A stretch of 27,996 nucleotides of DNA from a virus. Numbering within the stretch: position 1 is the first letter of the stretch; every line of letters begins with the position of its first letter. The DNA lies in the IMG/VR virus record IMGVR_UViG_3300030085_003788, positions 1-27,996 of that record. One strand, 5' to 3'. The notes beneath the pieces were generated by a model. It was not told the origin of the DNA, searched no databases, and was given only the letters and a program-made list of their open reading frames with translations. Positions 3,443 to 26,901 of the stretch are shown here, one piece after another. The position numbers and the translations under genes are program-made.

Positions 3443-5757
3443 GTAACGGTACAACGGTTAAGAAGCGTAATGGAAGAGGTACAGAACCCCTGAATCTTGA
3501 TAAGATTCATGTGATGGTAGAAGAGGCATGTAATGGTCTTGCGGGGGTTTCTGCAAGTCAAGTAGAGATTCAATCTGGAATTCAATTCTATGATGGAATT
3601 ACTACCGCAGAAATTCAAGAGATTCTTATTCGTAGTGCTAGTGATCTGATTGATCTAGAGCATCCAAACTATCAATTTGTATCTGCTCGTCTTCTACTAT
3701 TTGCACTTAGAAAAAGTCTATACGGCAGAATGCGCGAATGCCCATCAGTCAAGAAGCACACTGAGAAGTGTGTAGACATGGGTGTCTATGATCCTGAAAT
3801 CTTGAATCTTTATTCTGATGAAGAATTTGAGAAGATGGATTCTTTTATTGATCATGATAGAGATTTCCTATTCACCTATGCTGGTCTTCGTCAGGTAGTT
3901 GATAAGTATCTGGTTCAAGATCGTAGTAGTGGGCAAGTGTACGAAACCCCACAATTCATGTATCTGTTGATTTCTGCAACTATTTTCTCTAAATACCCAA
4001 AGGAGACTCGCCTGGATTATGTCAAACGATACTACGACGCAATCTCAAAGCACAAAATCAACATTCCAACCCCCATCATGGCAGGGGTGCGGACGCCAAT
4101 TCGTCAATATGCATCTTGTGTTCTTGTTGATATTGATGACACCCTCGATAGTATCTTTAGCAGTGATATGGCTATTGGCAAATACGTTGCACAAAGGGCT
4201 GGAATTGGGATTAACGCAGGTCGAATCAGGGGTATCAACAGCAAAATCAGAGGCGGAGAGGTTCAACACACAGGTGTTGTCCCCTTTCTCAAAAAGTTTG
4301 AATCAACTGTCAGATGTTGCACACAAAACGGCATCCGAGGCGGAAGTGCTACTGTCCACTTTCCTATCTGGCATCAAGAAATCCAAGACATCCTAGTACT
4401 AAAAAATAATAAAGGAACCGAAGATAATCGTGTTCGTAAACTAGACTATAGTATCCAAATCTCAAAACTCTTCTATGAACGATTTATCAAGAACGAAGAA
4501 GTTTCACTATTCAGTCCTCATGATGTCCCTGGGCTTTATGATGATTTCGGGACTGATCGCTTCGACGATAGGTATTGTGGTTACGAAGCAGATGCTTCCA
4601 TCCCCCGCACCACTATCAATGCCCAAGAACTGATTCTAGATCTTCTAAAAGAGAGAGCAGAAACTGGTCGTATCTACATTATGAATATCGACCACTGTAA
4701 CTCTCACTCATCTTTCTTGGATAAAGTTGAGATGAGTAACCTATGTCAAGAGATTACTCTTCCCACTAAACCTATTCAACACATTGATGATGAAGCTGGA
4801 GAAATTGCTCTGTGCATCCTTTCTGCTATTAATATTGGCAAAATTAGGGATCTTCAGGATCTTGAAGTTCTCTGCGATCTTAGCGTTAGGAGTCTTGATG
4901 AACTTATTGATTTTCAAGGATATCCCGTCAGAGCAGCAGAAATTGCCACAAAGGCACGACGCTCCCTTGGAGTGGGATTCATCGGTCTAGCACACTATCT
5001 CGCCAAGCAAGGCGTTTCTTACAACGATCCAGAGGCATGGAAACTTGTACATGAACTAACGGAAGTATTTCAATATCATTTGATTCGTTCTTCTGTAGAT
5101 CTTGCGAAAGAAAAAGGTCCTTGTACTTACTCTGATCGCACTAAGTATTCTCAAGGTATTCTGCCAATTGATACATATAAGAAGGATGTTGATGAACTAG
5201 TTCCTAATGACCTTTTACTTGATTGGGAGTCTCTACGGGCAGAAGTGGTTGAACATGGAATCAGGAACTCAACATTGTCCGCACAAATGCCTTCAGAGAG
5301 CAGTTCCGTTGTGTCAAATGCAACAAATGGAATTGAGCCACCTAGAGCGTACCTGTCCATTAAAAAATCTAAAAAAGGACCACTAAAGCAGATTGTTCCG
5401 CAGTATAATACTCTGAAGAACAATTACACTCTATTGTGGGATATGCCTAACAATTCTGGATATATCAGTATTGTGGCAGTAATGCAGAAGTTCTTTGATC
5501 AAGCAATCTCTGGTAACTGGAGTTATAATCCTCAGCACTTTGATGGATCTGAAGTTCCTACCAGCGTAATGGCAAATGACTTTTTAACTACATATAAGTA
5601 CGGTTGGAAGACATCTTATTATCAGAATACATATGATGTAAAAACCGACGAAGTAGAAGAAGAACCAGCATCAGTTCAACTCAAAGATGCAACTAGACTA
5701 CAAAGTCTAGTAGAAGACCTATCAAACCCAGAGGAGTGCGAATCCTGTGCAATTTAA
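3439..5757 (+). CDS. nrdA: Ribonucleotide reductase class Ia, large (alpha) subunit
   Basis: 772 residues, near the 761 of E. coli R1. It reduces ribonucleoside diphosphates to deoxynucleotides with NrdB. Visible parts are an N-terminal ATP-cone-like start (VKKRNGRGTEPLNLDKI), the redox cysteine in QYASCVLV (about residue 227), the active-site region NLCQEITLPTKP with GEIALCILSAINIG (radical and second redox cysteines), and the C-terminal shuttle pair in ECESCAI. All five key cysteines are present, so it should be active. I choose ATG 3439, which overlaps the primase stop as ATGA; the in-frame TTG 3427 is inside the primase gene. Phage RNR supplies dNTPs beyond host turnover. Confidence 0.97.
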   Translation: MSNGTTVKKRNGRGTEPLNLDKIHVMVEEACNGLAGVSASQVEIQSGIQFYDGITTAEIQEILIRSASDLIDLEHPNYQFVSARLLLFALRKSLYGRMRECPSVKKHTEKCVDMGVYDPEILNLYSDEEFEKMDSFIDHDRDFLFTYAGLRQVVDKYLVQDRSSGQVYETPQFMYLLISATIFSKYPKETRLDYVKRYYDAISKHKINIPTPIMAGVRTPIRQYASCVLVDIDDTLDSIFSSDMAIGKYVAQRAGIGINAGRIRGINSKIRGGEVQHTGVVPFLKKFESTVRCCTQNGIRGGSATVHFPIWHQEIQDILVLKNNKGTEDNRVRKLDYSIQISKLFYERFIKNEEVSLFSPHDVPGLYDDFGTDRFDDRYCGYEADASIPRTTINAQELILDLLKERAETGRIYIMNIDHCNSHSSFLDKVEMSNLCQEITLPTKPIQHIDDEAGEIALCILSAINIGKIRDLQDLEVLCDLSVRSLDELIDFQGYPVRAAEIATKARRSLGVGFIGLAHYLAKQGVSYNDPEAWKLVHELTEVFQYHLIRSSVDLAKEKGPCTYSDRTKYSQGILPIDTYKKDVDELVPNDLLLDWESLRAEVVEHGIRNSTLSAQMPSESSSVVSNATNGIEPPRAYLSIKKSKKGPLKQIVPQYNTLKNNYTLLWDMPNNSGYISIVAVMQKFFDQAISGNWSYNPQHFDGSEVPTSVMANDFLTTYKYGWKTSYYQNTYDVKTDEVEEEPASVQLKDATRLQSLVEDLSNPEECESCAI

Positions 5758-5779
5758 GAAATCAGTAGACGGTAAGTCA

Positions 5780-6928
5780 ATGACAAATCTTAAGGGGATG
5801 ACAGTTTTTAATACTGAAGATGTTGATACCAAAAAACAACCTATGTTTTTTGGTAAACCCCTAGGTGTCCAACGCTATGACAATTTTAAGTATCCTCAGT
5901 TTGAAAATCTAACGAAACAACAACTAGGATACTTTTGGCGTCCAGAAGAAGTATCCTTGCAGAAAGATCGTGGAGATTATCAAACGCTTCGTCCAGAACA
6001 AAAGCATATCTATACCTCTAACCTCAAGTACCAGATTATGCTTGACTCCGTTCAAGGGCGTGCTCCTGGGATGGCTTTCTTACCATACTGCAGTCTACCT
6101 GAACTAGAGGCATGTATGGAGGTATGGTCTTTTATGGAGATGATTCATAGTAGATCATATACTTATGTTATCAAAAATGTCTATCCTGACCCATCTGAAG
6201 TTTTTGATACTATAATTAAGGATGATAGAATCCTACAACGCGCTTCTACTGTTACCGAATCTTACGATGATTTCATCAATAGTGCCCAACTTTGGGGAAC
6301 TGGTAATATGTGGAGAGATGAGTTTAGAGGTTCTCCAACATCAGAATGGGAGATGATGGATGTTAAAAGAAAGTTATACAGAGCTGTCGCTAATGTTAAC
6401 ATTCTTGAGGGTATCCGTTTCTATGTTAGCTTTGCTTGCAGTTTTGCTTTTGGTGAACTCAAACTTATGGAGGGTTCTGCTAAGATTATCTCACTCATTG
6501 CGCGTGATGAAAATCAGCATCTTGCAATCACTCAGAACATTCTAAATAAGTGGAGACGCGGCGATGATCCTGACATGGTGAAAATCATGAAGGAAGAAGA
6601 GCAATGGACTTATGCAATGTTTGATCGCTGCGTAAACGAAGAAAAACTTTGGGCAGAGTATCTGTTCAAAGATGGATCTATGATTGGTCTTAATGACAAA
6701 CTACTTCAACAGTATGTTGAATGGATTGCAAATCGTAGAATGAAATCTATCGGACTAAAACCAGTTTATGACATTCCAGCAAAGAACAATCCACTTCCTT
6801 GGACAGAGCATTGGATTTCCTCAAAAGGTCTTCAAGTTGCTCCTCAAGAAACTGAAGTCGAATCATACATCGTCGGTGGAATCAAACAAGATGTCAAGCA
6901 AGACACTTTCGCAGGATTCAAGCTTTGA
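5780..6928 (+). CDS. nrdB: Ribonucleotide reductase class Ia, small (beta) subunit
   Basis: 382 residues from ATG 5780. It houses the di-iron/tyrosyl radical that starts NrdA catalysis. Iron ligands and the radical site are readable: the Asp in MLDSVQGRAP, EMIHSRSY (Glu, His and the radical Tyr), ILEGIRFYVSFACSFAF (Glu) and RDENQHLAI (Glu, His). The start is not certain. GTG 5747 overlaps nrdA and has GAGGAG upstream, and ATG 5801 (MTVFNTEDVDTKKQPMFFG) matches the usual beginning of cyanophage NrdB. The conserved protein is the same in all cases. It follows nrdA directly and lies in the same operon. Confidence 0.95.
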   Translation: MTNLKGMTVFNTEDVDTKKQPMFFGKPLGVQRYDNFKYPQFENLTKQQLGYFWRPEEVSLQKDRGDYQTLRPEQKHIYTSNLKYQIMLDSVQGRAPGMAFLPYCSLPELEACMEVWSFMEMIHSRSYTYVIKNVYPDPSEVFDTIIKDDRILQRASTVTESYDDFINSAQLWGTGNMWRDEFRGSPTSEWEMMDVKRKLYRAVANVNILEGIRFYVSFACSFAFGELKLMEGSAKIISLIARDENQHLAITQNILNKWRRGDDPDMVKIMKEEEQWTYAMFDRCVNEEKLWAEYLFKDGSMIGLNDKLLQQYVEWIANRRMKSIGLKPVYDIPAKNNPLPWTEHWISSKGLQVAPQETEVESYIVGGIKQDVKQDTFAGFKL

Positions 6929-7095: not shown

Positions 7096-7167
7096 GCGGG
7101 TGTAGCTCAGCGGTAGAGCGTCTGCCTTCCAAGCAGAATGTCGTCGGTTCGATCCCGATCACCCGCT
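7096..7167 (+). tRNA. tRNA-Gly (anticodon TCC)
   Basis: A full cloverleaf can be folded by eye. The acceptor stem GCGGGTG pairs with CACCCGC, the D arm is GCTC/GAGC, the anticodon stem TCTGC/GCAGA has loop CTTCCAA, and the T arm is GTCGG/CCGAT with loop TTCGATC. No CCA is encoded. It reads GGA and GGG codons. It starts one base after the stop of the small ORF and lies directly upstream of a late promoter. Confidence 0.95.
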
Positions 7168-7198: not shown

Positions 7199-9529
7199 AT
7201 GAAGTCGTTTAAGAATTTTTTAGTTGAAAAAGAGAATCCAAATAATCCTTCTGAAAAGAAACCTCAGATTTCTAAATCTGATGCGAAAAAAATTCAGAGA
7301 ATGAAGGATGCGGATCCTGATACCGCTAGAAGAATTCAATCTGGATTAGAATCCAGTAGAGAAGCCGCTAGAAGAATAAAGAGTGGAGAAACCAGAACAT
7401 CTCAGACTGGTCAAAGAACAAGAACAAGACCCAGCACACTAGGTCCAGATCGTATTGGTGGTGGTGAAGTCGATCCATCTGATCAGGCACGAGCAAGGCA
7501 ATCTGGTAGAGTTAGAACAGGTACAGATACACCAATAAAAGATCTACCACAAGCTGATACTGCTAAAGTAACTCCAAAAAAGAAAGCAGAATTAGATAAG
7601 TTTAGAAGCACTAAACCTCAACAATCTCCAGAACCTCAACGATCTCCAGTTGGATCAGGTGAGAGGAGAAGAGCAGATGCAATGAATCAGGCTAGGGCTG
7701 ATGGTGCTGATAAACCTTTTAAAAGTCCTAGAGGTCGTGGTGGTGATCTTTTAGATAGATTAACAGGTCGCACAACACGCACAAGATCAAGTGCAAAACC
7801 CACAACTGCATTTGGCAAACCTTCAGGAACTGATCCAAAAACTGGAAAAGCGATGTATGTTCCTCCTAAGAACATACCTCAAAGAGATCAAAGAGTTGAT
7901 CCTAAAACTGGCAAAGCAACTCAGGCAGGTGTAAGAAACTATGCTATGAGTCAGGGTGGATATGCTCGATCTGATCGAAATATGTCCAAAGCAGAATTTG
8001 ATCAGGTCAAAGCAAGAGCAGATCAGATTGCTAGTGATCCAAACAGTGCAGAATATAAAAAGATTGAGAGGAAGATAAATCAGGAATATGGTGGAAGGAG
8101 GATGAGAAGGAGACCTTCTAATGCCCCATCTTTCGCTCAAGTACAGGCAGAGATTGATGCAAAAGAAGCACAAAAGACAAAGCCTCAAAAATCTGCAAAG
8201 GCAGTTCCACCAAAACCAACTCCCACTCCAACACCAACTCCTACTCCAGAACAACCAAAGACTCCTAAGAAATCTTACTCAGATTTTAGTAAGTTCACTC
8301 AACAGAATATGAGGGGAGATTCTAGACCTAAAGTAGTTGCAACACCTGAACCCCCAGCACAACCAAAGGCACCAAAACCAGAGTTTAAATCAAAACCAAC
8401 ACCTACCCCTACACCCACTACAACTAGATCGGTTGGACAATCAGTAGCAGGTGGTCCAGTGCCTTCTTCTCCACCATCATCACCCGAGAAACCAAAGGTT
8501 GTTGATGGAAATAATCGTTTTAGTGATCGTTCAGCATCTGCTGCTGCCGATGATCTTAGGAAATCTGGACTTGGTGATAAATTGGGTCAGGATGAGTTAC
8601 TTGATAGAATTAATCAAAAACCAAGAACTACAAAACCCAAACCCACAAAACCTAAACTTCAGCTTCCCCCTAAACTTAAAGGAGTTGGTGGAACTGCTTT
8701 GAGAGGTGCTGCTGGAACTGCTTTTGGTCTTGGAGTAGGTGCTGGTATTGAAAAACTGCCTGTTAATCGCCAAACCAAAGATGCACTTCAAACAACGGCT
8801 GGTGTTATTGGTGCTGTAAGTACCCCTGTTGCTTCCACGTTGCTCAGTCTTGGTGGATCTACAAGACAGGCACCGACAACACAACCATCTGCTTCTGACA
8901 GAGCCACTGAATTTAAATCTGATCCAAATAAAGTTAATGTGAGATCTTTTAAACCAGCATATGATCCAAAAAATCCATATGATATTACTAAGTGGAGATT
9001 AAGTAATGATCCTGGTGTCAACACTAAAATGACCAAAGCTGAACTTGAAAAATTAACTAAACCTAAGTTTGCAGATCTTCGTGGTAGTATCAAGCCTGGT
9101 AGTGTTGTACCAAAAGGATTTAAAACTTCTGATCCTGAATTAGCAAAACTCAATCAGAAAGAACTTGATAAATTAAAGCCCAAACCAGTAAAACTACCTC
9201 CTGGTACAGATAAAGGCACATCTCCTAAACCAGAGGAATCTCCTTCGGTTGCAAACCCAGGAGCAACACCCAATACTACAACCAGAACCACCAATCCTAC
9301 AGAACCCGCACCAGCGCCAAAAACACAACCAGAACCACAACTACAGCCAAAACCACAACCACAACCACAACCACCAAAAACACAAACTAAAGATCCGAAA
9401 CCAAAGAATCCACAAAATCCTATGCTACCACCACGACCACCAGGTGGAAGAAAACCTAATATTAAGACCCATACATGGTATGGACCTACAAAGAGGAAGT
9501 ACTTATTTGGTGGACCCGATAAATCCTAA
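7199..9529 (+). CDS. Large Pro/Lys-rich virion-type protein with capsid-targeting-like N-terminus
   Basis: 776 residues from ATG 7199 (GTG 7187 would add four residues and leave almost no leader from the late promoter). It begins MKSFKNFLVE, which resembles the T4 internal-protein signal MKTYQEFIAE and ends in L-x-E, the form cut by the gp21 head protease. The rest is basic and disordered: Arg/Ser/Thr-rich, then PTPTPTP and proline-lysine stretches, then a Gly/Ala-rich hydrophobic segment (about residues 493-550, with GGTALRGAAGTAFGLGVGAG) that could enter membranes, and a Pro/Gln/Thr-rich C-terminus. The short repeat DPKTGKAMYVPP/DPKTGKATQAGV is visible around residues 210-240. No enzymatic domain is seen. 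A packaged and ejected head protein fits, but this is inference. Confidence 0.85.
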   Translation: MKSFKNFLVEKENPNNPSEKKPQISKSDAKKIQRMKDADPDTARRIQSGLESSREAARRIKSGETRTSQTGQRTRTRPSTLGPDRIGGGEVDPSDQARARQSGRVRTGTDTPIKDLPQADTAKVTPKKKAELDKFRSTKPQQSPEPQRSPVGSGERRRADAMNQARADGADKPFKSPRGRGGDLLDRLTGRTTRTRSSAKPTTAFGKPSGTDPKTGKAMYVPPKNIPQRDQRVDPKTGKATQAGVRNYAMSQGGYARSDRNMSKAEFDQVKARADQIASDPNSAEYKKIERKINQEYGGRRMRRRPSNAPSFAQVQAEIDAKEAQKTKPQKSAKAVPPKPTPTPTPTPTPEQPKTPKKSYSDFSKFTQQNMRGDSRPKVVATPEPPAQPKAPKPEFKSKPTPTPTPTTTRSVGQSVAGGPVPSSPPSSPEKPKVVDGNNRFSDRSASAAADDLRKSGLGDKLGQDELLDRINQKPRTTKPKPTKPKLQLPPKLKGVGGTALRGAAGTAFGLGVGAGIEKLPVNRQTKDALQTTAGVIGAVSTPVASTLLSLGGSTRQAPTTQPSASDRATEFKSDPNKVNVRSFKPAYDPKNPYDITKWRLSNDPGVNTKMTKAELEKLTKPKFADLRGSIKPGSVVPKGFKTSDPELAKLNQKELDKLKPKPVKLPPGTDKGTSPKPEESPSVANPGATPNTTTRTTNPTEPAPAPKTQPEPQLQPKPQPQPQPPKTQTKDPKPKNPQNPMLPPRPPGGRKPNIKTHTWYGPTKRKYLFGGPDKS

Positions 9530-9557: not shown

Positions 9558-10433
9558 ATGGAAAAGAAAGAGGTAAAGGAAGAGAGAACTGCCGCCGATC
9601 CTGGTATGAAGGCAAGGATGGGTAGAGTTAAGAAGGATACTGGATCTTTCTTTGATGGTGCTAGAGGTGGCAAGTATGACCTCAATCCTAAGAATAAGGA
9701 TACTGGATCTTTCTTTGATGGTGCTAGAGGTGGCAAGTATGACCTCAATCCTAAGAATAAGGATACTGGATCTTTCTTTGATGGTGCTAGAGGTGGCAAG
9801 TATGATACGACAACATCAACTAAAACCTCTCCAGCAGCGCCTACAACGCCCGAAAAACCCCTAAGATCTATTGATCCTAGTGTTGAAAGACGCCTCTCTG
9901 TCGGCGCTGAGAGGGTGGATAAGATGGCAGAAAAGATTAGAGCATTGAGAGCGATGAGAGCTAGATCTCAAAGTCGTCTTATGTCTCAAGGAGAAAAACC
10001 AGTAACTCCTATGGTTGTTCCTTCTGCAAAAGTAGAAAAACCAAGAAGTGGAAGAAATGCTATGAGAGATAGTAATGATAGTATGGATGCTTTTGATCTA
10101 GTTCTAGAGTATCTCATAACCACTGGTCAGGTTGATAGTTTAGATGAAGCACTCTATGTTATGATGGAAATGGATGCAGAAACCATCCAAGGAATCATAA
10201 GTGAAGAGACTGAAGATTCTTTGAGAGACCGTCGCCAAGAGCGTGGTGGTTCTGATGGCAATCAGCGTTATCCATCCGACAGGGGTGTTAAAAAAGGACC
10301 CATGTCTCCTGAAGATAAGAAAAAATCTAGGGAGAAGTCAAAGTCTGCTTTAGATCATGTAAGATCATCCATTACTAAGCAGTATGGAGCAGGTGCTATC
10401 TACAAGAAAAAAGAAAAGAAAGACGAAGACTGA
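9558..10433 (+). CDS. 291-aa virion-type protein with 21-residue tandem repeats
   Basis: ATG 9558 follows a 28-base gap holding a partial late promoter (CTAAATAC around 9526-9533, overlapping the upstream stop). After a charged start come nearly three copies of a 21-residue unit (KDTGSFFDGARGGKYDLNPKN). Next is a basic region, then DAFDLVLEYLITTGQVDSL with EALYVMMEMDAETIQGI (about residues 176-215). I recall this helical motif in several structural-type proteins of cyanomyoviruses. The C-terminus is Lys-rich. The protein probably belongs to the particle or its assembly. Its stop abuts the stop of the convergent gene with no spacer. Confidence 0.8.
   Translation: MEKKEVKEERTAADPGMKARMGRVKKDTGSFFDGARGGKYDLNPKNKDTGSFFDGARGGKYDLNPKNKDTGSFFDGARGGKYDTTTSTKTSPAAPTTPEKPLRSIDPSVERRLSVGAERVDKMAEKIRALRAMRARSQSRLMSQGEKPVTPMVVPSAKVEKPRSGRNAMRDSNDSMDAFDLVLEYLITTGQVDSLDEALYVMMEMDAETIQGIISEETEDSLRDRRQERGGSDGNQRYPSDRGVKKGPMSPEDKKKSREKSKSALDHVRSSITKQYGAGAIYKKKEKKDED
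9633..9806 (+). repeat. 63-bp tandem repeat, 2.8 copies, in frame
   Basis: Copies at 9633-9695, 9696-9758 and partial 9759-9806. By eye they are identical at the DNA level, including third codon positions, and encode the 21-residue unit of the 291-aa protein. This indicates recent duplication by slippage or recombination. Confidence 0.95.
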
Positions 10434-10778
10434 TTATCTAGTTACCGATTTCTTCACCAAAACAGTCCCCTCTACTGCCCTAGTGACAGAACCAGTGGGA
10501 CTGTTTAACATTAGGTCGTAAAAATATTTTCCTGGTTTCAGGTTTGCTGTAACTGATGATGCAATTGATATGGTAACTCTACCTGTTGTTCTGTCGTTAG
10601 CAAAACTTACTTGAAAATCTGCAGATTTTTTAGATCCCTCATATCGCTTCATCTGGGCACAACCATTGTACCCAGTAAGATCTAATATGCTGCTAGAATT
10701 GTAGTCTTCCAAAGCAAATGTTTGATCAAAATCCGTACCTGTGTACAACACAAGGTCGCTAACATATGTGGGTGCCAT
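10434..10778 (-). CDS. 114-aa stand-alone copy of a beta-rich phage baseplate/fibre domain
   Basis: The whole protein is one domain of about 110 residues that also forms the N-terminus of the genes at 13985-14584 and 14590-15552. Shared pattern: a DLTGY-type motif (LDLTGYNGCAQMKRY), then a beta strand with F-x-V-x-F, TGRVTISI, LKPGKYFYDL and VEGTVLV. It resembles BppU N-terminal-like baseplate domains in layout, but the family name is not proven. It probably attaches or caps tail structures. It is the last gene of the minus-strand cassette and has its own late promoter at 10791-10798. Its stop abuts that of the plus-strand gene. Confidence 0.8.
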   Translation of the reverse strand: MAPTYVSDLVLYTGTDFDQTFALEDYNSSSILDLTGYNGCAQMKRYEGSKKSADFQVSFANDRTTGRVTISIASSVTANLKPGKYFYDLMLNSPTGSVTRAVEGTVLVKKSVTR

Positions 10779-10790
10779 TGGTTTTTTAAA

Positions 10791-10798
10791 TATTTATG
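10791..10798 (-). promoter_or_regulatory. Late promoter CATAAATA (minus strand)
   Basis: Reverse complement of TATTTATG, 12 bases before the ATG of the 114-aa gene. The TAA stop of the 570-aa gene lies inside it, so the promoter sits at the gene junction. Confidence 0.65.
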
Positions 10799-12506
10799 TG
10801 AGGTCTGTTAAGAATGGTGCAATCCAATCTTCATTGGGGTTTGTTACTGTGATGATAGTAATATTTCTTTCATTTAATTTTTGAACTAATTTATCGTAAG
10901 ATTGCGAAACTGTTCTCATATTCATACTACCAGAGGTATCAATAAAGATAGCAACTTTACCACCTTCAGGAAGTTGATCTAAAGAACAAATATCATACCA
11001 GTCACAAACATCTAGTATATTTCCATCATCCCTGTTTACTCTTACTGGTCCAAAGGTTAAATTATTTGCATTTGCGCCAACAGATAATGATGTATCATTA
11101 ATAGTGATTTCAGGTGATGTTGCTAAGATAGCTCCATTTGAACCACCATCTCTAAGTTCAACACTGAATTTTTCGGGTCCTTCAGTTGATCTATCTGATT
11201 TTAGATATAAATTAAACAGAGCTTCTCCATTAGTAATATTTAAAAGTCCACTAGTAGGGTAAGCGTTTTCAAAGTCTGAATCAGTTAATGCATTATTTGG
11301 TGAGATGACTGTATAATATAAAAGCTGTGTGGATATAGTTGAAGTTACTGTAAAGAGTACGCTACCACCTTCATCTACATTAAGTATATTAGGTGTTATT
11401 GAATATGTTGGTGCAACATCACCTATGGTAACATCAGAACTTGTTACAATTCCTGGTCCTGATGTAGATCCAGTACGAACAACAATATTAAAAGTTTCAT
11501 CACCATCAAGAACTGCATCTGTTGCAATAGATCTTACAATAGTTCCAATACCAGTTGTTGCTCCTGTACTGACAACATTAAAAGAACCTGTTGTTGAATT
11601 ATTGGAAAAGTCTTCTGCAGTAGCAGTTCCACCTGTGCTGTAATATAAAGTTCCCGTTGCATTTATTGTATTGACTGTAAAACTTACAGAACTTCCTTCA
11701 TTTACCGATGTTGCGCTTGGTGTAATTGTAGCTGATGGTAAACCAAGATTTGTTATATGTGTGGCAGGACTTGATGTTGTTACAATACCACCAGTTGTAG
11801 ATCCTGTTGAAACATTAACAATAAATCCTTCAGTTATTTCATTTTCTAGTATATCATTAGCAGCAACTTTAGTAATTGTGCCAATACCATTATTGATTTC
11901 AAAAGAACCTACTAATAAATTATCGGCAAAATCTGCTGCTGAAACATTACCAACAATATTATAGTAAAGGGTAGTACCAGATCCAACATTAGTTGTATTG
12001 ACTGTGAAATTTACAGTGCCACCTTCTTGAATAGTTGTTGCAGATCCAACAATAGAGTAAGTCGGTGCATTTCCAGATTGAAATAATCCACCACCGAGAC
12101 CAAGAACTGTTAATGTTGAATCTGTACCAAGACTAATTGTGTCATTTAATCCATATGTTGTATCACCATATTTTACACCAACACCATCTCCAATAAACTC
12201 TAATTCATATGCTGCTCTATTTGGGTCTCCATCAGTTCCAACTCCAAGATTTATAAAATCTCCTTCCATTGCTGGAACATAAAATAGTTCATTATTGGAG
12301 AAGATTGTATCTACACCAACCTGTTCACCAGTTTCAAAAAGAACTACATTTATAACTTGATTGGTATTAATTCCAGATGCAACGGAAACCATTGCACCAG
12401 TCATTTCACCAAGCAGACAAGTTTGTATTCCGCTGGTGAATTTCTTTCTATGTGCCCTTAAAAAGGCTTTGAAACTATTTCTATTATTACTATTTGGAAA
12501 TGGCAT
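10794..12506 (-). CDS. Tail-adhesin-like protein: Calx-beta-like repeats and short vWA-like C-terminus
   Basis: 570 residues. A basic N-terminus is followed by a region of about 100 residues with beta-rich character. Three repeats of about 100-110 residues start with the sequence YSI..V.EGG.V.FTV (about 148, 255 and 367) and contain ATAEDF-, DGDETF- and TIND-like segments, as in Calx-beta domains. The C-terminus holds KVAIFIDTSGSM, a MIDAS DxSxS motif with D523, followed by a helix and a strand (ITIITV). Only about 55 residues of a vWA fold (normally about 180) are present. These features suit calcium- or metal-dependent binding to a cell surface. It follows the 491-aa gene with one spacer base and has an AGAGGA RBS. 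Confidence 0.85.
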   Translation of the reverse strand: MPFPNSNNRNSFKAFLRAHRKKFTSGIQTCLLGEMTGAMVSVASGINTNQVINVVLFETGEQVGVDTIFSNNELFYVPAMEGDFINLGVGTDGDPNRAAYELEFIGDGVGVKYGDTTYGLNDTISLGTDSTLTVLGLGGGLFQSGNAPTYSIVGSATTIQEGGTVNFTVNTTNVGSGTTLYYNIVGNVSAADFADNLLVGSFEINNGIGTITKVAANDILENEITEGFIVNVSTGSTTGGIVTTSSPATHITNLGLPSATITPSATSVNEGSSVSFTVNTINATGTLYYSTGGTATAEDFSNNSTTGSFNVVSTGATTGIGTIVRSIATDAVLDGDETFNIVVRTGSTSGPGIVTSSDVTIGDVAPTYSITPNILNVDEGGSVLFTVTSTISTQLLYYTVISPNNALTDSDFENAYPTSGLLNITNGEALFNLYLKSDRSTEGPEKFSVELRDGGSNGAILATSPEITINDTSLSVGANANNLTFGPVRVNRDDGNILDVCDWYDICSLDQLPEGGKVAIFIDTSGSMNMRTVSQSYDKLVQKLNERNITIITVTNPNEDWIAPFLTDLT

Positions 12507-12507
12507 A

Positions 12508-13983
12508 TCAGAATCCTCTCATTGCTGCAAACATAACCGCACCCAACAATAATGTATTATCAGCAATCGCATTGCCAAGAGGTATGTCTGGATTGTAAAA
12601 CGCTGGATCTGCTTCAGCATATGATGCTTTAGCAATTTGGACATCTACATATGGAAATCCTGGTAGGTGTGCATATCTAAGACTCATTGTTATTTTATCA
12701 CACTGTTCCCACCATTCTGCTTTACTTAAGTTATCACCATATGCTGCTGGTTTTGGTTGATCTGCATTATACCAGTCTACGTGAATAAATCCAATTTCGT
12801 TAGGAGCACCACTACATACAATGCTCAAATAATTAATTCTTCCAGATATTCTATTACTTGTTCCATCTGATAGATTTCCAAAGTCAACCATAGCATATGG
12901 TCCCATAATATCATTTGCCTCTTGAACTCTTTGAGCAAAACTTGTAAATGGTTTTGGATAGTTACCGCCACCGCCAAATGACCAAGAACTCATAGCGGCA
13001 GGCAGAACTCTATTATCTGGTAGATAGTTTGGTAACATACCAAAAGGATCAGGTCCAGAACCAACAGGACGAGAGGCACATTCAAATCCACAAGTGCCAT
13101 CTAGTGGTATTGTTGCTAATACTGAAAATGGAATTAATCCATCACGTATTGCTGCAAGGAATAAATTTTTATTACATTTACATATTTCTAATGGTGTAAA
13201 TGTAACCTTGAACTCCATTTGTTCGATTGCACCAATGTTAGTAACATTGACTCCAAATACTTCTGCCCATCTGAAAAGATTGAAATTTCGTGTTATTGAG
13301 GCATCACCTCCATAGACCCCAAATGCCCAATAGAGCATTTTTGATATATTGTTTTGTATACCTTTTTGAACTGCAAGTGGAACTAAAGGCAACCCAACAG
13401 CAAGACCAACAAGATATTTTACTAACCAATTCAACATTCCAAGAATACTCTTCCTCTGATCAATGGTTGGTGCAGCACCAAGATCATCCATTCCAGTGAA
13501 TAGATAGGTGTCTCTTATCTCCAAACTTCCATCTGGCATCCAATGAAAGGCACCCTGTTTTTTTCCTAGAACGTGGAAAACATTTGCAACACCATCTAAA
13601 TTTCTAGAGTGATTCTGATAATTATTAAATAAACCAGAAGCAGATGGATTTGATCCCAATGATTGTATAAATTTACATTTTACTTCATCATCATATGGAA
13701 CTTCTATAGGATTTCCTGGTGTTCCTGGACCGTTGGGAAGTTGATATGTTGTTTGTTGAATATAATATTGTGCCAACATCAAAGCAGCTGTTGCAAGCCC
13801 ACTAATTTGGGTTCTTAAATCATCTGCTACATTAGGGTCCGAATATTGATTATTGAAAGAATCACCTCTAAACTCCTCTGCAGCAGATTCTATTGCATTT
13901 CTAGATATAATGAGATTACTATAATTAAAGTCTGCATTATCATCTGGCATTATAAAATTTCCAGGAAATCCTTGCTGTGACAT
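12508..13983 (-). CDS. 491-aa structural-type protein of the adhesin cassette
   Basis: I do not recognise a family. The protein has a mixed alpha/beta composition and a hydrophobic stretch (WLVKYLVGLAVGLPLVPLAV, about residues 185-204). A cysteine-bearing region reads ICKCNKN, then GTCGFECASRP, and the C-terminus is Gly/Ala-rich and hydrophobic (LLGAVMFAAMRGF). There is no signal peptide. It sits between the 199-aa and 570-aa genes with one-base spacers on each side, so it is cotranslated with adhesin-like proteins and probably belongs to the same tail structure or its assembly. The exact role is unknown. Confidence 0.8.
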   Translation of the reverse strand: MSQQGFPGNFIMPDDNADFNYSNLIISRNAIESAAEEFRGDSFNNQYSDPNVADDLRTQISGLATAALMLAQYYIQQTTYQLPNGPGTPGNPIEVPYDDEVKCKFIQSLGSNPSASGLFNNYQNHSRNLDGVANVFHVLGKKQGAFHWMPDGSLEIRDTYLFTGMDDLGAAPTIDQRKSILGMLNWLVKYLVGLAVGLPLVPLAVQKGIQNNISKMLYWAFGVYGGDASITRNFNLFRWAEVFGVNVTNIGAIEQMEFKVTFTPLEICKCNKNLFLAAIRDGLIPFSVLATIPLDGTCGFECASRPVGSGPDPFGMLPNYLPDNRVLPAAMSSWSFGGGGNYPKPFTSFAQRVQEANDIMGPYAMVDFGNLSDGTSNRISGRINYLSIVCSGAPNEIGFIHVDWYNADQPKPAAYGDNLSKAEWWEQCDKITMSLRYAHLPGFPYVDVQIAKASYAEADPAFYNPDIPLGNAIADNTLLLGAVMFAAMRGF

Positions 13984-13984
13984 A

Positions 13985-14584
13985 TTAGATAAGAGGTGGA
14001 GTGTTTATTGTTGTTTCAGTTAGGAAATTATCAGGACATCTAAGCCTATCAAAATCATTACTTTCGGATGGTGTACCAAAAGCATTGGTGGCTGATGGTG
14101 TTAATAAGTAGAATTTTCTATATGGGAACTGTGATCTAAATTGTGTCCATTGAGATTCCATTATAGCTGTAGTTTGAGAGTCACTCTCATCAATTACTGC
14201 AATACAGACTCTTGTCATGTTACCTGCATTTGCAAATGAATCGCAGTTTGTGGAAATTCCTTCTACAACAGTTGCTCTTCCTTGCAAGACAATTTCTTTT
14301 TTACCTCCAGGTTTTGTGAAGATAATATCATAAACATATCTCCCAGCTTTAAGATTCGTAGTCGTAAAACTTGGAATTGATAATTTTATTTTTCCAGTTA
14401 CTCTATCTAAAAAACTGATAGTAAAATTGACAGAAGTTTTGCTACCAGCATGTTTCCGCAACTGAGCTTGTGCTGAATAATTAGTCAGATCAACAGGATC
14501 TCCACCCATTTGGAGCATGTCATATTCTTGTTCGTAATCACTTCCACCATCTATCCTGATGTTGTGGGTGTATACTACTGCCAT
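13985..14584 (-). CDS. Baseplate/fibre-domain protein with MIDAS-like C-terminal module
   Basis: 199 residues. Residues 1-110 repeat the domain found in the 114-aa and 320-aa proteins (VDLTNYSAQAQLRKH, then TGKIKLSI, LKAGRYVYDI and LQGRATVVEG). The C-terminal 75 residues have VCIAVIDESDSQ, a strand ending in DxSxS (residues 132-136), then a helix and FYLLTPSA. That matches the C-terminal module of the 570-aa protein (AIFIDTSGSM, helix, ITIITVTNP). The fit is a half-length vWA-like or Rossmann-like module. It is five bases from the upstream gene. A weak late-promoter-like CTAAATAG lies just upstream (14594-14601). Confidence 0.8.
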   Translation of the reverse strand: MAVVYTHNIRIDGGSDYEQEYDMLQMGGDPVDLTNYSAQAQLRKHAGSKTSVNFTISFLDRVTGKIKLSIPSFTTTNLKAGRYVYDIIFTKPGGKKEIVLQGRATVVEGISTNCDSFANAGNMTRVCIAVIDESDSQTTAIMESQWTQFRSQFPYRKFYLLTPSATNAFGTPSESNDFDRLRCPDNFLTETTINTPPLI

Positions 14585-14589
14585 CTTTT

Positions 14590-15552
14590 TTAACTATTTA
14601 GAACTAGATTACGGAGAGCAGAATATAATTGTTGCCCCACAGTTGCAAAATCAGTGGGTTTCCCCTCAAAAGTAGGAAGATCAAAAGTATTAGTATCTGC
14701 ACTTACATATAATATTCCAGCTCCAATTTTCTCATAAGCAACAGTTACTTGAGCACCTACAGCATAAACTGGTGTTCCGCCAGTGAAGGTTCCGCTGGCA
14801 TTAGAATATAATTCAATGGGAAAGTTCGATTCTACAACTGAACTATCATTTGATCTGTCCATGAAGATCTGCAATGCCACATCTACATTATCTTGTCTAA
14901 TTTCTGAGCCAAGACCTATCAATATCTCATTCATTCCTGCCTCATCTCCACAACCATTTTGTGTAAACCATTCATTATTTACCCATATAACTCCACCACG
15001 TTGAAGATATTGAACCAGACTATTTTTATATGCCGTATTTCTTATAAGAGATACAGCGTTATCTAATGTCTGACATCCATTGACAAATCCTAGACGAACT
15101 ATACCATAATCATTGATATCATTAATAGTAATTGATGTACCAGTTACATTAGGACCAAATCCGTTTGCTTCTAAAATAAATCCAATCTCTTCATTTGCAT
15201 AAGAAGTAACAACACACGATGGTGTAACATCTTCAGTTGCCAGTACATTACCTTCTATAACAATACTTTTCTTACCTGTAGTATCTGTAAACATCATATC
15301 CCAGACATACCGACCAGGTTTAATATCTACACTATCGCTTGATTTTAAAGATATTCTTACTCTTCCGTTCGCCCTGTCTATAAATCCAACATTGAAAGTC
15401 GCAGCTGCATTTAAACTTTCTGGATGCTTTCTGACTTGAGATGCTGCTGTATATCCAGTTAGATCTAGAGGTCCATTACTATCATCTAGATAAAAATCTC
15501 TAGAAAAATATTCCCCCGTGTTAATAGTAATATTGTTGACGTAGACTGCCAT
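14590..15552 (-). CDS. Baseplate/fibre-domain protein with Rossmann/amidotransferase-like C-terminus
   Basis: 320 residues. Residues 1-108 are the shared domain (LDLTGYTAASQVRKHP, then NGRVRISL, IKPGRYVWDM and IEGNVLA). The C-terminal 200 residues read like an alpha/beta flavodoxin or class-I amidotransferase fold (DYGIVRLGFVNG, then YLQRGGVIWVNNEW, EILIGLGSEI and GAGILYVSADTNTF), similar in layout to ThuA or DUF4350 domains. No catalytic Cys-His pair is clear, so binding is more likely than catalysis. It is the first gene of the minus-strand cassette, with a late promoter 19 bases upstream. Confidence 0.8.
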   Translation of the reverse strand: MAVYVNNITINTGEYFSRDFYLDDSNGPLDLTGYTAASQVRKHPESLNAAATFNVGFIDRANGRVRISLKSSDSVDIKPGRYVWDMMFTDTTGKKSIVIEGNVLATEDVTPSCVVTSYANEEIGFILEANGFGPNVTGTSITINDINDYGIVRLGFVNGCQTLDNAVSLIRNTAYKNSLVQYLQRGGVIWVNNEWFTQNGCGDEAGMNEILIGLGSEIRQDNVDVALQIFMDRSNDSSVVESNFPIELYSNASGTFTGGTPVYAVGAQVTVAYEKIGAGILYVSADTNTFDLPTFEGKPTDFATVGQQLYSALRNLVLNS

Positions 15553-15571: not shown

Positions 15572-15579
15572 TATTTATC
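15572..15579 (-). promoter_or_regulatory. Late promoter GATAAATA (minus strand)
   Basis: Reverse complement of TATTTATC, 19 bases before the ATG at 15552. It should drive the whole five-gene minus-strand cassette. It lies back to back with plus-strand promoters at 15586-15640. Confidence 0.65.
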
Positions 15580-15585
15580 AAGGGC

Positions 15586-15614
15586 TTGACAAACCTTGAT
15601 TCCGTAAGTAGGAT
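15586..15614 (+). promoter_or_regulatory. Host sigma70-type (early) promoter
   Basis: TTGACA at 15586-15591 and TAGGAT at 15609-15614 are separated by exactly 17 bases. It points to the GIY-YIG gene and the plus-strand run behind it. The assignment is from motif and spacing only. Confidence 0.55.
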
Positions 15615-15666: not shown

Positions 15667-16116
15667 ATGAGTTATGAGAATCCTTGGATATACTTGGAAC
15701 GAACTTTTGATAGTGATGATGTTGGGGACTACTTTGGCTTTGTTTATCTCATTACCAATAAGTCCAACCAACGACAATACATTGGGCGAAAGTATTTTTG
15801 GTCGTTTAGAAAACCACCAGGGAAGAAAAGAAAAGTAAAGCAAGAATCTGATTGGAAAAAGTATTATGGTTCTTGTCCTGAGTTAAAAGAAGACATCAAA
15901 AAGTATGGCAAAGAGTTCTTCAGTAGAGAAATATTGAGTCTGCATAAAACTAAAGGAACTTGTAACTTTGAGGAAACTAAGCAGTTATTCCTAAATAATG
16001 TGTTACAAGAATCACTTGACAGCGGTATACCCGCCTACTATAATAGTAATATTCTTGGAAGGTATATGCGTAAGGACTATGGTAACTTTAGCAAAAATAC
16101 TGAAGAAGAATCATGA
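15667..16116 (+). CDS. GIY-YIG-type endonuclease (Seg-like)
   Basis: 149 residues from ATG 15667; upstream in-frame codons would run into the promoters. GFVYLITN (residues 24-31) and QYIGRKYF (37-44) are the two GIY-YIG core motifs including the conserved Arg41. A basic stretch (PPGKKRKVKQ) is followed by KKYGKEFFSREILS and a conserved NFEETKQLF segment. T4 has homing nucleases of this class (SegA-E). The cyanophage versions are short, lack an obvious DNA-binding tail and may act in phage competition or DNA processing rather than homing. The gene lies at the divergent promoter region at the edge of the adhesin cassette. Confidence 0.75.
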   Translation: MSYENPWIYLERTFDSDDVGDYFGFVYLITNKSNQRQYIGRKYFWSFRKPPGKKRKVKQESDWKKYYGSCPELKEDIKKYGKEFFSREILSLHKTKGTCNFEETKQLFLNNVLQESLDSGIPAYYNSNILGRYMRKDYGNFSKNTEEES

Positions 16117-19258: not shown

Positions 19259-19416
19259 TTCACAACGCAGGGCATTTTGCCGCATGGGCTTTAAATAACC
19301 CATATACATTAGGACCAATGTGTATAGCATTGGTCTTTGTTCCCATTCTTGGAATGTGGGCAGTTCACAAATATGGATGGGAGCATTGGGAACCTTTTGA
19401 CAAAAAACACAAGTAA
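19255..19416 (+). CDS. 53-aa single-span membrane protein between petE and PTOX
   Basis: A short gene whose ATG overlaps the petE stop (ATGA) and whose TAA lies seven bases before the PTOX start. The product has one membrane segment (MCIALVFVPILGMWAV) between MIHNAGHFAAWALNN and KYGWEHWEPFDKKHK. His and Trp are notable at both ends; no cysteine or heme motif is seen. It belongs to no family I recognise. Its place suggests a role with plastocyanin or PTOX, perhaps anchoring or quinone access, but this is inference from position. Confidence 0.7.
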   Translation: MIHNAGHFAAWALNNPYTLGPMCIALVFVPILGMWAVHKYGWEHWEPFDKKHK

Positions 19417-19423
19417 TAGTGTT

Positions 19424-20056
19424 ATGGAAAAATTTAACCAGATTACTTTAAATATTACAGTATCAATTATAGACTTCCTGTATAAAGGAAGAGACTTTCA
19501 AAGATTTTGGGTGCTTGAGGAAATTGCTCGGGCACCATATTTTGCGTTTTTAAGTGTCTTACACCTTCGTGAATCTTTAGGTTTGCGAGGTCAATGGCAC
19601 ATTTATTTGATGAAAGAACACTTCGAGCAGAGCGTCAATGAAACAGAACATCTGGAGTACATGGAATCTAGGGGCGGTAATTCTTATTGGATTGATCGCT
19701 TTTTTGCCAGACACCTCGTCCTTATCTATTATTGGGTCAATGTGGTTTATTATTGGGTGGCTCCTCGCGCTGCTTACCATCTCTCCTACGAAGTAGAGAT
19801 TCATGCAGCAGAAACATATGGAGAATACTTAACTCGTTTTCCAAAAGATGAGAAGATTTGGGAGATTATGAATGATGAGGTTCAGCACTTCCAAGAACTT
19901 GCAGAAGCGATTAGGATCCTTGATCCTGATCACTTAACTGTAAGAGAGAAGGATCGTGATCCATTCCCCCCAGATGTAAGTGATCTAGGAGTCACAGTTA
20001 AAACTATTGGGTATCAAGAACATGAACCTATTTCTCAGACCACTAGAAGATCCTAA
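19424..20056 (+). CDS. ptox: Plastoquinol terminal oxidase (PTOX, alternative-oxidase family)
   Basis: 210 residues. The di-iron ligands of the family are readable: E32 (VLEEIARAPYFAF), E73 and H76 (NETEHL), E125 (EVEIHAAETY) and E152 and H155 (DEVQH). It oxidises plastoquinol and reduces O2 to water, relieving over-reduction of the electron chain and permitting continued photosystem II activity. The ATG at 19424 is chosen because it opens the conserved N-terminus. A short C-terminal tail past the DEVQH motif overlaps the next gene by 35 bases. It sits in the petE operon. Confidence 0.95.
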   Translation: MEKFNQITLNITVSIIDFLYKGRDFQRFWVLEEIARAPYFAFLSVLHLRESLGLRGQWHIYLMKEHFEQSVNETEHLEYMESRGGNSYWIDRFFARHLVLIYYWVNVVYYWVAPRAAYHLSYEVEIHAAETYGEYLTRFPKDEKIWEIMNDEVQHFQELAEAIRILDPDHLTVREKDRDPFPPDVSDLGVTVKTIGYQEHEPISQTTRRS

Positions 20057-26035: not shown

Positions 26036-26254
26036 ATGGCTCAATCTACTGAACAACAAAAACAACATTTGGATTCTGCTGTTGAGCAGCAGCAAATGTT
26101 GCTGAACGAGATTCAAGAATTACAAAATCAAATTAATCAGAAGAGAGAAGTTGTACTAAAAGTACAAGGCGTTATTGAATATCTGCAACAAGTTGTAGAA
26201 GCACCTGAACCTGTTGTAGTTCCTGAAACAACAACTGAAGGAGATGCTGAATGA
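26036..26254 (+). CDS. 72-aa coiled-coil protein upstream of talC
   Basis: Almost all of residues 5-52 form one Gln/Glu/Leu-rich coil (LLNEIQELQNQINQKREVVL), followed by a Pro/Val/Glu tail. There is no signal peptide or enzymatic motif. The stop overlaps the talC start by four bases (ATGA). Coupling to talC is seen; a functional link is not established. Confidence 0.8.
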   Translation: MAQSTEQQKQHLDSAVEQQQMLLNEIQELQNQINQKREVVLKVQGVIEYLQQVVEAPEPVVVPETTTEGDAE

Positions 26255-26901
26255 AAATCTTTCTAGACACTGCAGATGTAAATGAAATCCGTGAGGGATG
26301 GGAGTCTGGAATTATTGATGGTATTACCACTAACCCTACACTAATCCGTAAGAGTGGTAGAGATCCTGAAGAAGTTTATCAGGAACTTATTGATATGGGC
26401 ATCAATGATGTCAGCATGGAAGTCGTAGGAGACTATGCTACAATGGTTGATGAAGGTGCTCGCCTTGCCCGCAAATTTGGTAAATCAGCAACTATTAAAG
26501 TTCCTTGTACTCCAGATGGTTTGCGTGTTTGTAGAACACTTTCAAGAGATCTGATCAGTGTAAATGTAACTCTAATCTTTTCTCCTGCACAAGCAATTCT
26601 TGCCGCAAAGAGTGGTGCGAAATATGTATCACCATTTGTAGGTAGAGTTGACGATAACTCATATTCTGGTCTTTCTCTTGTGGAGCAGATCGCTAAAGTA
26701 TATGATGTGCAGGGTATCAATAAAACAGAAGTTCTTGCAGCATCCATTCGTGATGTAAAAGCAGTATCTGATTGTTTTGCTGTTGGAGCTAATGTTGTTA
26801 CAATGCCACCAAAAGTATTTCACAAAATGTATGAACATGTATTGACTGATAAAGGTCTATACCTATTCGATTTGGATTTTGCTCAGATTGTCAAAAAGTA
26901 G
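26251..26901 (+). CDS. talC: Transaldolase, TalC type
   Basis: 216 residues, typical for the short TalC/MipB family. The N-terminal MKIFLDTADVNEIREG and TTNPTLIRK are diagnostic. Schiff-base lysine K83 lies in TIKVPC. NVTLIFSPAQA and AASIRDV complete the barrel. It transfers dihydroxyacetone units in the pentose phosphate pathway. In cyanophages it is a common auxiliary metabolic gene that pushes carbon towards NADPH and ribose-5-phosphate, which fits with the NrdAB genes in this window. The ATG overlaps the coiled-coil gene. Confidence 0.97.
   Translation: MKIFLDTADVNEIREGWESGIIDGITTNPTLIRKSGRDPEEVYQELIDMGINDVSMEVVGDYATMVDEGARLARKFGKSATIKVPCTPDGLRVCRTLSRDLISVNVTLIFSPAQAILAAKSGAKYVSPFVGRVDDNSYSGLSLVEQIAKVYDVQGINKTEVLAASIRDVKAVSDCFAVGANVVTMPPKVFHKMYEHVLTDKGLYLFDLDFAQIVKK

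Follow-up and report, generated by a model that had tools for sequence, protein, structure and literature searches.

A candidate tail attachment cassette built around a T5-type collar domain beside nrdB in P-SSM2-like cyanophages

What do five minus-strand genes, packed together between nrdB and a GIY-YIG-like gene of a marine cyanophage, encode, and how did they come to stand there? The genes lie at positions 10434 to 15552 of a 27,996-nucleotide stretch of DNA (the window) that is part of a 36-kb virus record, IMG/VR IMGVR_UViG_3300030085_003788. The phage is a T4-like cyanomyovirus near Prochlorococcus phage P-SSM2. From left to right, the five open reading frames have products of 114, 570, 491, 199, and 320 amino acids (aa) and are spaced by 15, 1, 1, and 5 bp. 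An original prediction had described five tightly packed minus-strand genes here, and its coordinates, strand, and spacing are all correct. It had also placed them inside a late-gene block, which is not the case, since primase and nrd genes flank the cassette on the left and auxiliary metabolic genes flank it on the right. The cassette, complete or reduced, was found again in dozens of independent contigs. Homology of an N-terminal domain, a late-type operon, a variable spot, an accretion series, and change of modules were all observed. We consider it fairly probable that the five genes form a late operon encoding an exchangeable tail attachment unit, located in a hot spot between nrdB and the GIY-YIG-like gene and built stepwise, with its outward modules changing.

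A collar-type domain in a late-type operon

A domain of about 112 residues is common to the N termini of the 114-, 199-, and 320-aa products and is not found in the 570- or 491-aa products. In BLASTP, the 199- and 320-aa proteins share 37% identity over 119 aa (E = 2e-25), and the 114- and 199-aa proteins share 34% over 113 aa (E = 1e-22); the 320-aa query finds the other two again at E = 7e-24 and 9e-21. These pairwise alignments bear out the original prediction that three genes begin with one common domain, and the motifs it named are present. All three proteins belong to the PHROG class 'L-shaped tail fiber protein assembly' (phrog_3304, best E = 1e-42). When a profile built from ten domains was searched against PDB, the sole matches were p132 of phage T5 (7qg9, E = 7e-4) and LtfC of phage DT57C (8hqz, E = 0.011). 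Matches to BppU_N reached 5e-5 among relatives, and the window proteins stayed below the cut-off.

A structure model was made for the 320-aa protein, while the 114- and 199-aa proteins were assigned by sequence. The AlphaFold model has a predicted local distance difference test score (pLDDT) of 82 overall and of about 77 to 91 in the collar domain, which is an Ig-type beta-sandwich. In a Foldseek search with this model, T5-type collars took places 1 to 4 (8hqz, E = 4e-8, TM score of 0.62 on the target), baseplate proteins of 80alpha, NF5, and TP901-1 stood lower in the list, and many short phage proteins of the viral library also matched. The C-terminal module of the 320-aa protein has an alpha/beta fold; its Foldseek matches were weak and mixed (glycosidases, lipin), and no assignment was made. 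The profile search suggested with the original prediction thus identified a known tail docking/collar domain, and the 320-aa model, together with the sequences of the other two proteins, gave no contradiction to a shared fold. In T5 and DT57C, the homologue forms a dodecameric ring that encircles the tail tip and holds the lateral fibres in place (PMC10038345, PMC10713586). Because the homologue is such an anchoring ring, the common domain is most likely an attachment or docking socket rather than an adhesin.

Late promoters of S-PM2 and other cyanomyoviruses have the form NATAAATA (PMC2984593). On the minus strand of the window, ATAAATA occurs at two places only (15572-15578 and 10791-10797), each directly before a cassette gene. 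Among cassette loci, all 37 lead genes have NATAAATA within the 60 bp before them, against 0.50 expected, and 16 of 35 'last' genes in relatives have the motif as well. Since both minus-strand motifs precede cassette genes and every lead gene carries the motif, the cassette is very probably a separate late operon, with the 320-aa gene as its first gene. CTAAATA was also considered as a promoter and was rejected, as it occurs at chance level and NATAAATA is the proper motif.

Table 1. Cassette genes, flanking genes, and promoter motifs in the window
Feature	Position	Strand	Basis or remark
nrdB, left neighbour kept beside the spot	5747..6928	+	phrog_86 E=1e-166; anchor gene of the locus comparison
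776-aa basic, proline-rich protein, start MKSFKNFLVE/K	7199..9529	+	sequence; no PHROG match; convergent with the cassette
291-aa protein, P-SSM2 gp212 homologue	9558..10433	+	phrog_1418 E=4e-13
114-aa bare collar (LtfC-like) protein	10434..10778	-	phrog_1084 3e-26, phrog_3304 1e-25
Late-promoter-type motif CATAAATA upstream of the 114-aa gene	10791..10798	-	motif scan
570-aa protein with Calx-beta/Ig-like repeats	10794..12506	-	alignment of 21 relatives; phrog_29022 2e-15
491-aa protein	12508..13983	-	relatives only in 5-gene-type cassettes
199-aa protein: collar domain (14243-14584) and conserved ~85-aa C-terminal tail	13985..14584	-	phrog_3304 1e-42 over 1-180
320-aa protein: collar domain (15214-15552) and ~205-aa alpha/beta C-terminal module	14590..15552	-	phrog_3304 4e-29
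Late promoter GATAAATA, 20 bp before the lead (320-aa) gene	15572..15579	-	motif scan
GIY-YIG-like gene, right neighbour kept beside the spot	15667..16116	+	phrog_447 1e-66 from residue 28

Variation of the cassette and of its insertion spot

The ends of the collar proteins differ among relatives (contigs carry L numbers). The 320-type domain is bare (116 aa) in L092 and L094, and in L138 it is joined to an unrelated module that is found in other phages, including as a 'putative tail protein' of a crAss-like phage. In two separate sub-branches (L007/L095 and L096/L097), a PA14-like insert lies inside the 320-type collar domain. This insert, seen in the proteins at L007:1223-2638 and in L095, L096, and L097, also occurs in cyanophage structural proteins that carry the label 'PA14 domain' or 'major head protein'. 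Comparison of L007 with the window gives high identity for the 491-aa protein (85%) and for the 570-aa protein in its first part (91%); the diverged parts are the 320-type C-terminal module (46%) and repeat 3, the last, of the 570-aa protein (36%). The C-terminal parts therefore vary, where invariance in all relatives would have spoken against the original prediction. Its proposal of a mix-and-match set stands for the ends, which are absent, swapped, or inserted, and for gene content, which varies.

The 570-aa protein begins with an N-terminal part of ~140 aa, continues with approximately three Calx-beta/Ig-like repeats (residues ~149-475), and ends in a conserved domain (~476-570) that contains the motif FIDTSGSM. 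Five of 21 family members matched Calx-beta (PF03160), at up to 1.7e-6, and the window copy, which falls under the threshold, aligns with them; Ig_3 was matched at 6e-8 among family members. The number of repeats in relatives varies between one, in proteins of about 200 aa, and about four, at 723 aa. The C-terminal domain matches phrog_29022 'virion structural protein' (2e-15) and recurs near the N terminus of S-PM2 p223, an annotated virion structural protein in a short-tail-fibre cluster. The 491-aa protein has close relatives only, in similar cassettes, and the region is split or replaced in others. Both proteins are probably accessory adhesin or stalk parts, the 570-aa protein as a Calx-beta-type stalk. 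It is not claimed that the 199- and 570-aa proteins share a von Willebrand-type ancestor in their C-terminal parts (DESDS, DTSGSM), because profile-profile comparison showed no relation and the MIDAS-like motif is lost in three-gene relatives.

Cassettes occur in forms of two genes (two bare collar genes), three genes (114; a Calx-beta protein of about 200 aa; 196), or five genes. In a tree of 131 domains with only 113 columns, the far gene of two-gene cassettes clusters with the 114-type, and these two fall together with the single copy that other cyanophages have in the operon. The near gene of two-gene cassettes is the sister of the 199-type clade (support 100/90), while the 320-type makes up a third branch. 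The tree suggests that the two-gene pair is ancestral and that the cassette acquired tails, a third copy, and two more genes as it grew. In the simplest history, a bare collar pair would have come first, the near copy would then have acquired a tail and a Calx-beta gene would have been inserted, and a third collar copy and the 491-type gene would have been added last. The data allow more than one order for the last steps.

The spot itself is usually short, with less than 700 bp between nrdB and the GIY-YIG-like gene in 51 of the 71 loci showing both, and it holds a collar cassette in 7 of 75 informative nrdB loci. In L073 (4059-6431), the same spot is occupied by another minus-strand pair, a tail-fibre-like gene and a Peptidase_S74 intramolecular chaperone; a late-promoter-type motif lies upstream of this pair. 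Plus-strand genes face the cassette in most cassette loci. In the window, primase (gp61), nrdA, and nrdB are followed on the left by two plus-strand genes, the first with a late promoter, and the stop of the second (291-aa) gene abuts the stop of the convergent 114-aa gene. A relative of the 291-aa gene adjoins most cassettes. The right flank consists of the GIY-YIG-like gene, plastoquinol terminal oxidase, endonuclease V, transaldolase, and similar genes.

Several observations concern these neighbours. A capsid-targeting sequence (CTS) has been described (PMC9026906), and a permissive pattern finds a T4-CTS-like start in the first large gene after nrdB at 14 of 19 distinct cassette loci. The basic, proline-rich products of first genes after nrdB (window 7199-9529; L004, L013, L039, L099) begin with such a peptide, MKSFKNFLVE in the window, which ends in a likely gp21 cleavage site. 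As judged from these sequences, proteins of the 776-aa type are probably a family of packaged internal head proteins. The 291-aa protein has tandem DTGSFFDGARGGKYDLNPKNK repeats near its N terminus, and its counterpart in the near-identical contig L005 has 270 aa, one repeat length shorter. For the GIY-YIG-like gene, the listed TTG start at 15586 is probably too early; phrog_447 carries the label 'NAD synthetase', yet it resembles a GIY-YIG/homing endonuclease (phrog_314, 3e-13), and this gene forms the right edge of the spot. The cyanophage auxiliary genes for plastoquinol terminal oxidase and transaldolase lie at 19337-20056 and 26251-26901. In L013, L089, L098, L105, L106, and P-SSM2, the cassette is separated from the GIY-YIG-like gene by a tryptophan-halogenase-like gene. 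Insertion bounded by tRNA genes was considered and rejected: a tRNA-Gly (7096-7167) flanks the insert, and among the other scanned cassette loci only the near-identical L009 has one.

Proposed position in the virion and alternative functions

Named phages outside the P-SSM2 group have one collar copy each; in phages lacking the cassette this copy is bare and belongs to the baseplate-neck operon. In all, 133 records hold 139 collar places, and the six extra places belong to six P-SSM2-group records with two copies each. In S-CAM9, the collar copy has a 2508-aa structural gene and a small virion gene on one side and gp13-15 on the other; P-SSM2 has similar neighbours, but no collar gene lies between its gp116 and gp117. 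The operon copy is absent from all 53 informative loci related to P-SSM2 gp118, so its loss may be older than the cassette, and the idea that the collar gene was relocated from the operon to the nrdB spot was dropped given these loci. The operon copy and the cassette were seen to exclude each other.

The place of the operon copy in other cyanophages, between baseplate genes and the neck genes gp13/gp14/gp15, would also suit a collar or whisker at the neck (the head-tail joint) that serves sensing or fibre folding and not host binding. The collar and whisker proteins of T4 are likewise modular. We nevertheless regard a neck location as unlikely, since the similar folds found in 80alpha, TP901-1, and NF5 are those of baseplate proteins and the T5 and DT57C homologues encircle the tail tip (PMC10038345, PMC10713586). 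The PHROG and RefSeq label 'L-shaped tail fiber protein assembly' would instead make the products assembly factors for tail fibres encoded elsewhere, not retained in the virion, and detection of the products by mass spectrometry is not known. Little credence can be given to this reading, as LtfC of T5-like phages is a structural virion ring by cryo-electron microscopy (PMC10038345, PMC10713586). Calx-beta stalks, PA14 inserts, and swapped ends are, moreover, typical of exposed structural parts. Display of the Ig-like and PA14-bearing proteins on the capsid is very improbable: Ig-like folds decorate many capsids, and the PA14-like insert of L007 matches cyanophage structural proteins named 'major head protein' in RefSeq, but the docking domain comes closest, in sequence and in fold, to tail collars and not to Hoc-like decorations.

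A tail attachment unit is the preferred reading, and several points weigh against it. The best Pfam LtfC match (1.5e-4) is still below the curated cut-off, as is that of the 114-aa protein (2.7e-4). PHROG and Pfam searches found no long trimeric fibre gene like T5 LtfA/pb1 in the cassette. The 199-type C-terminal tails are well conserved, unlike a fast-changing receptor-binding tip. The 491-aa protein had no match in PHROG, Pfam, PDB, or phage records and none in named phages, and its structure model from six sequences (pLDDT 42) was too poor for use. Virion mass spectrometry or proteomics of these genes was not found in the literature, supplementary tables not covered; in the same literature, no published mention of the nrdB spot was found.

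Ring formation, mixed composition, location in the virion, exposure of the ends, and an effect on host range are what we infer for the tail attachment unit. The 114-, 199-, and 320-aa proteins, as LtfC/p132-type subunits, would probably form a tail ring together near the baseplate. In this ring, the 114-aa protein would be bare, the 199-aa protein would bear its short conserved tail, and the 320-aa protein would bear a variable alpha/beta head, presumably exposed. The 570- and 491-aa proteins would be held by the ring as accessory adhesin or stalk parts, and gain, loss, or replacement of outward modules would alter which cell surfaces the phage holds. More tentatively, with somewhat less than even confidence, we propose that in P-SSM2-like phages the operon collar was replaced by a mobile late cassette, giving a mixed ring of two to three paralogues, each the plug for a different swappable adhesin. 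If so, one virion would show several attachment modules, and host choice would shift with the content of a short spot beside nrdB.

The tail-fibre and receptor-binding genes of cyanomyoviruses are largely unassigned, and the cassette offers, for a widespread marine group, a compact host-attachment candidate that can be tested. It gives the T5-type collar a place in T4-like phages, and its graded series (0, 2, 3, and 5 genes) lets the growth of an attachment device be read. P-SSM2 is cultured, so virion proteomics and gene-loss tests are conceivable.

Comparison with known systems

The cassette collar domains resemble p132 of T5 and LtfC of DT57C in their Ig-type beta-sandwich, in a length of about 110 to 140 aa, and in being encoded by a small late structural gene. 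In the T5-like phages, which are siphoviruses, a single bare copy forms a homo-dodecamer that holds a long fibre. In contrast, the cassette belongs to a T4-like myovirus, where it occupies a separate variable spot and encodes three paralogues, two of them extended at the C terminus. The single-domain trait of the LtfC/p132 family is found in the 114-aa protein and not in the 199- and 320-aa proteins. Variable host-recognition genes in otherwise conserved genomes are also the mark of the metaviromic islands of marine phages, in a paper that does not mention P-SSM2 (PMC3909814).

P-SSM2 gp214-gp216 (NC_006883) match the window in position after nrdB, in strand, and in three of the five genes, with identities of 51% for the 199-aa protein (full length, gp216) and 60.5% for the 114-aa protein. 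Unlike the window, P-SSM2 has no 320- or 491-aa gene, and the middle protein is shorter there, at 198 aa with one repeat versus 570 aa with approximately three. The nearest working parallel is FibL/FibU of 80alpha, two paralogous BppU-type docking domains with different C-terminal modules that form rings of attachment proteins (PMC7048315); BppU of TP901-1 is of the same class. FibL/FibU and BppU carry coiled-coil or collagen-like fibres, whereas the cassette proteins carry alpha/beta, PA14-like, or short tails alongside a Calx-beta protein, and their sequence relation to BppU_N is weak.

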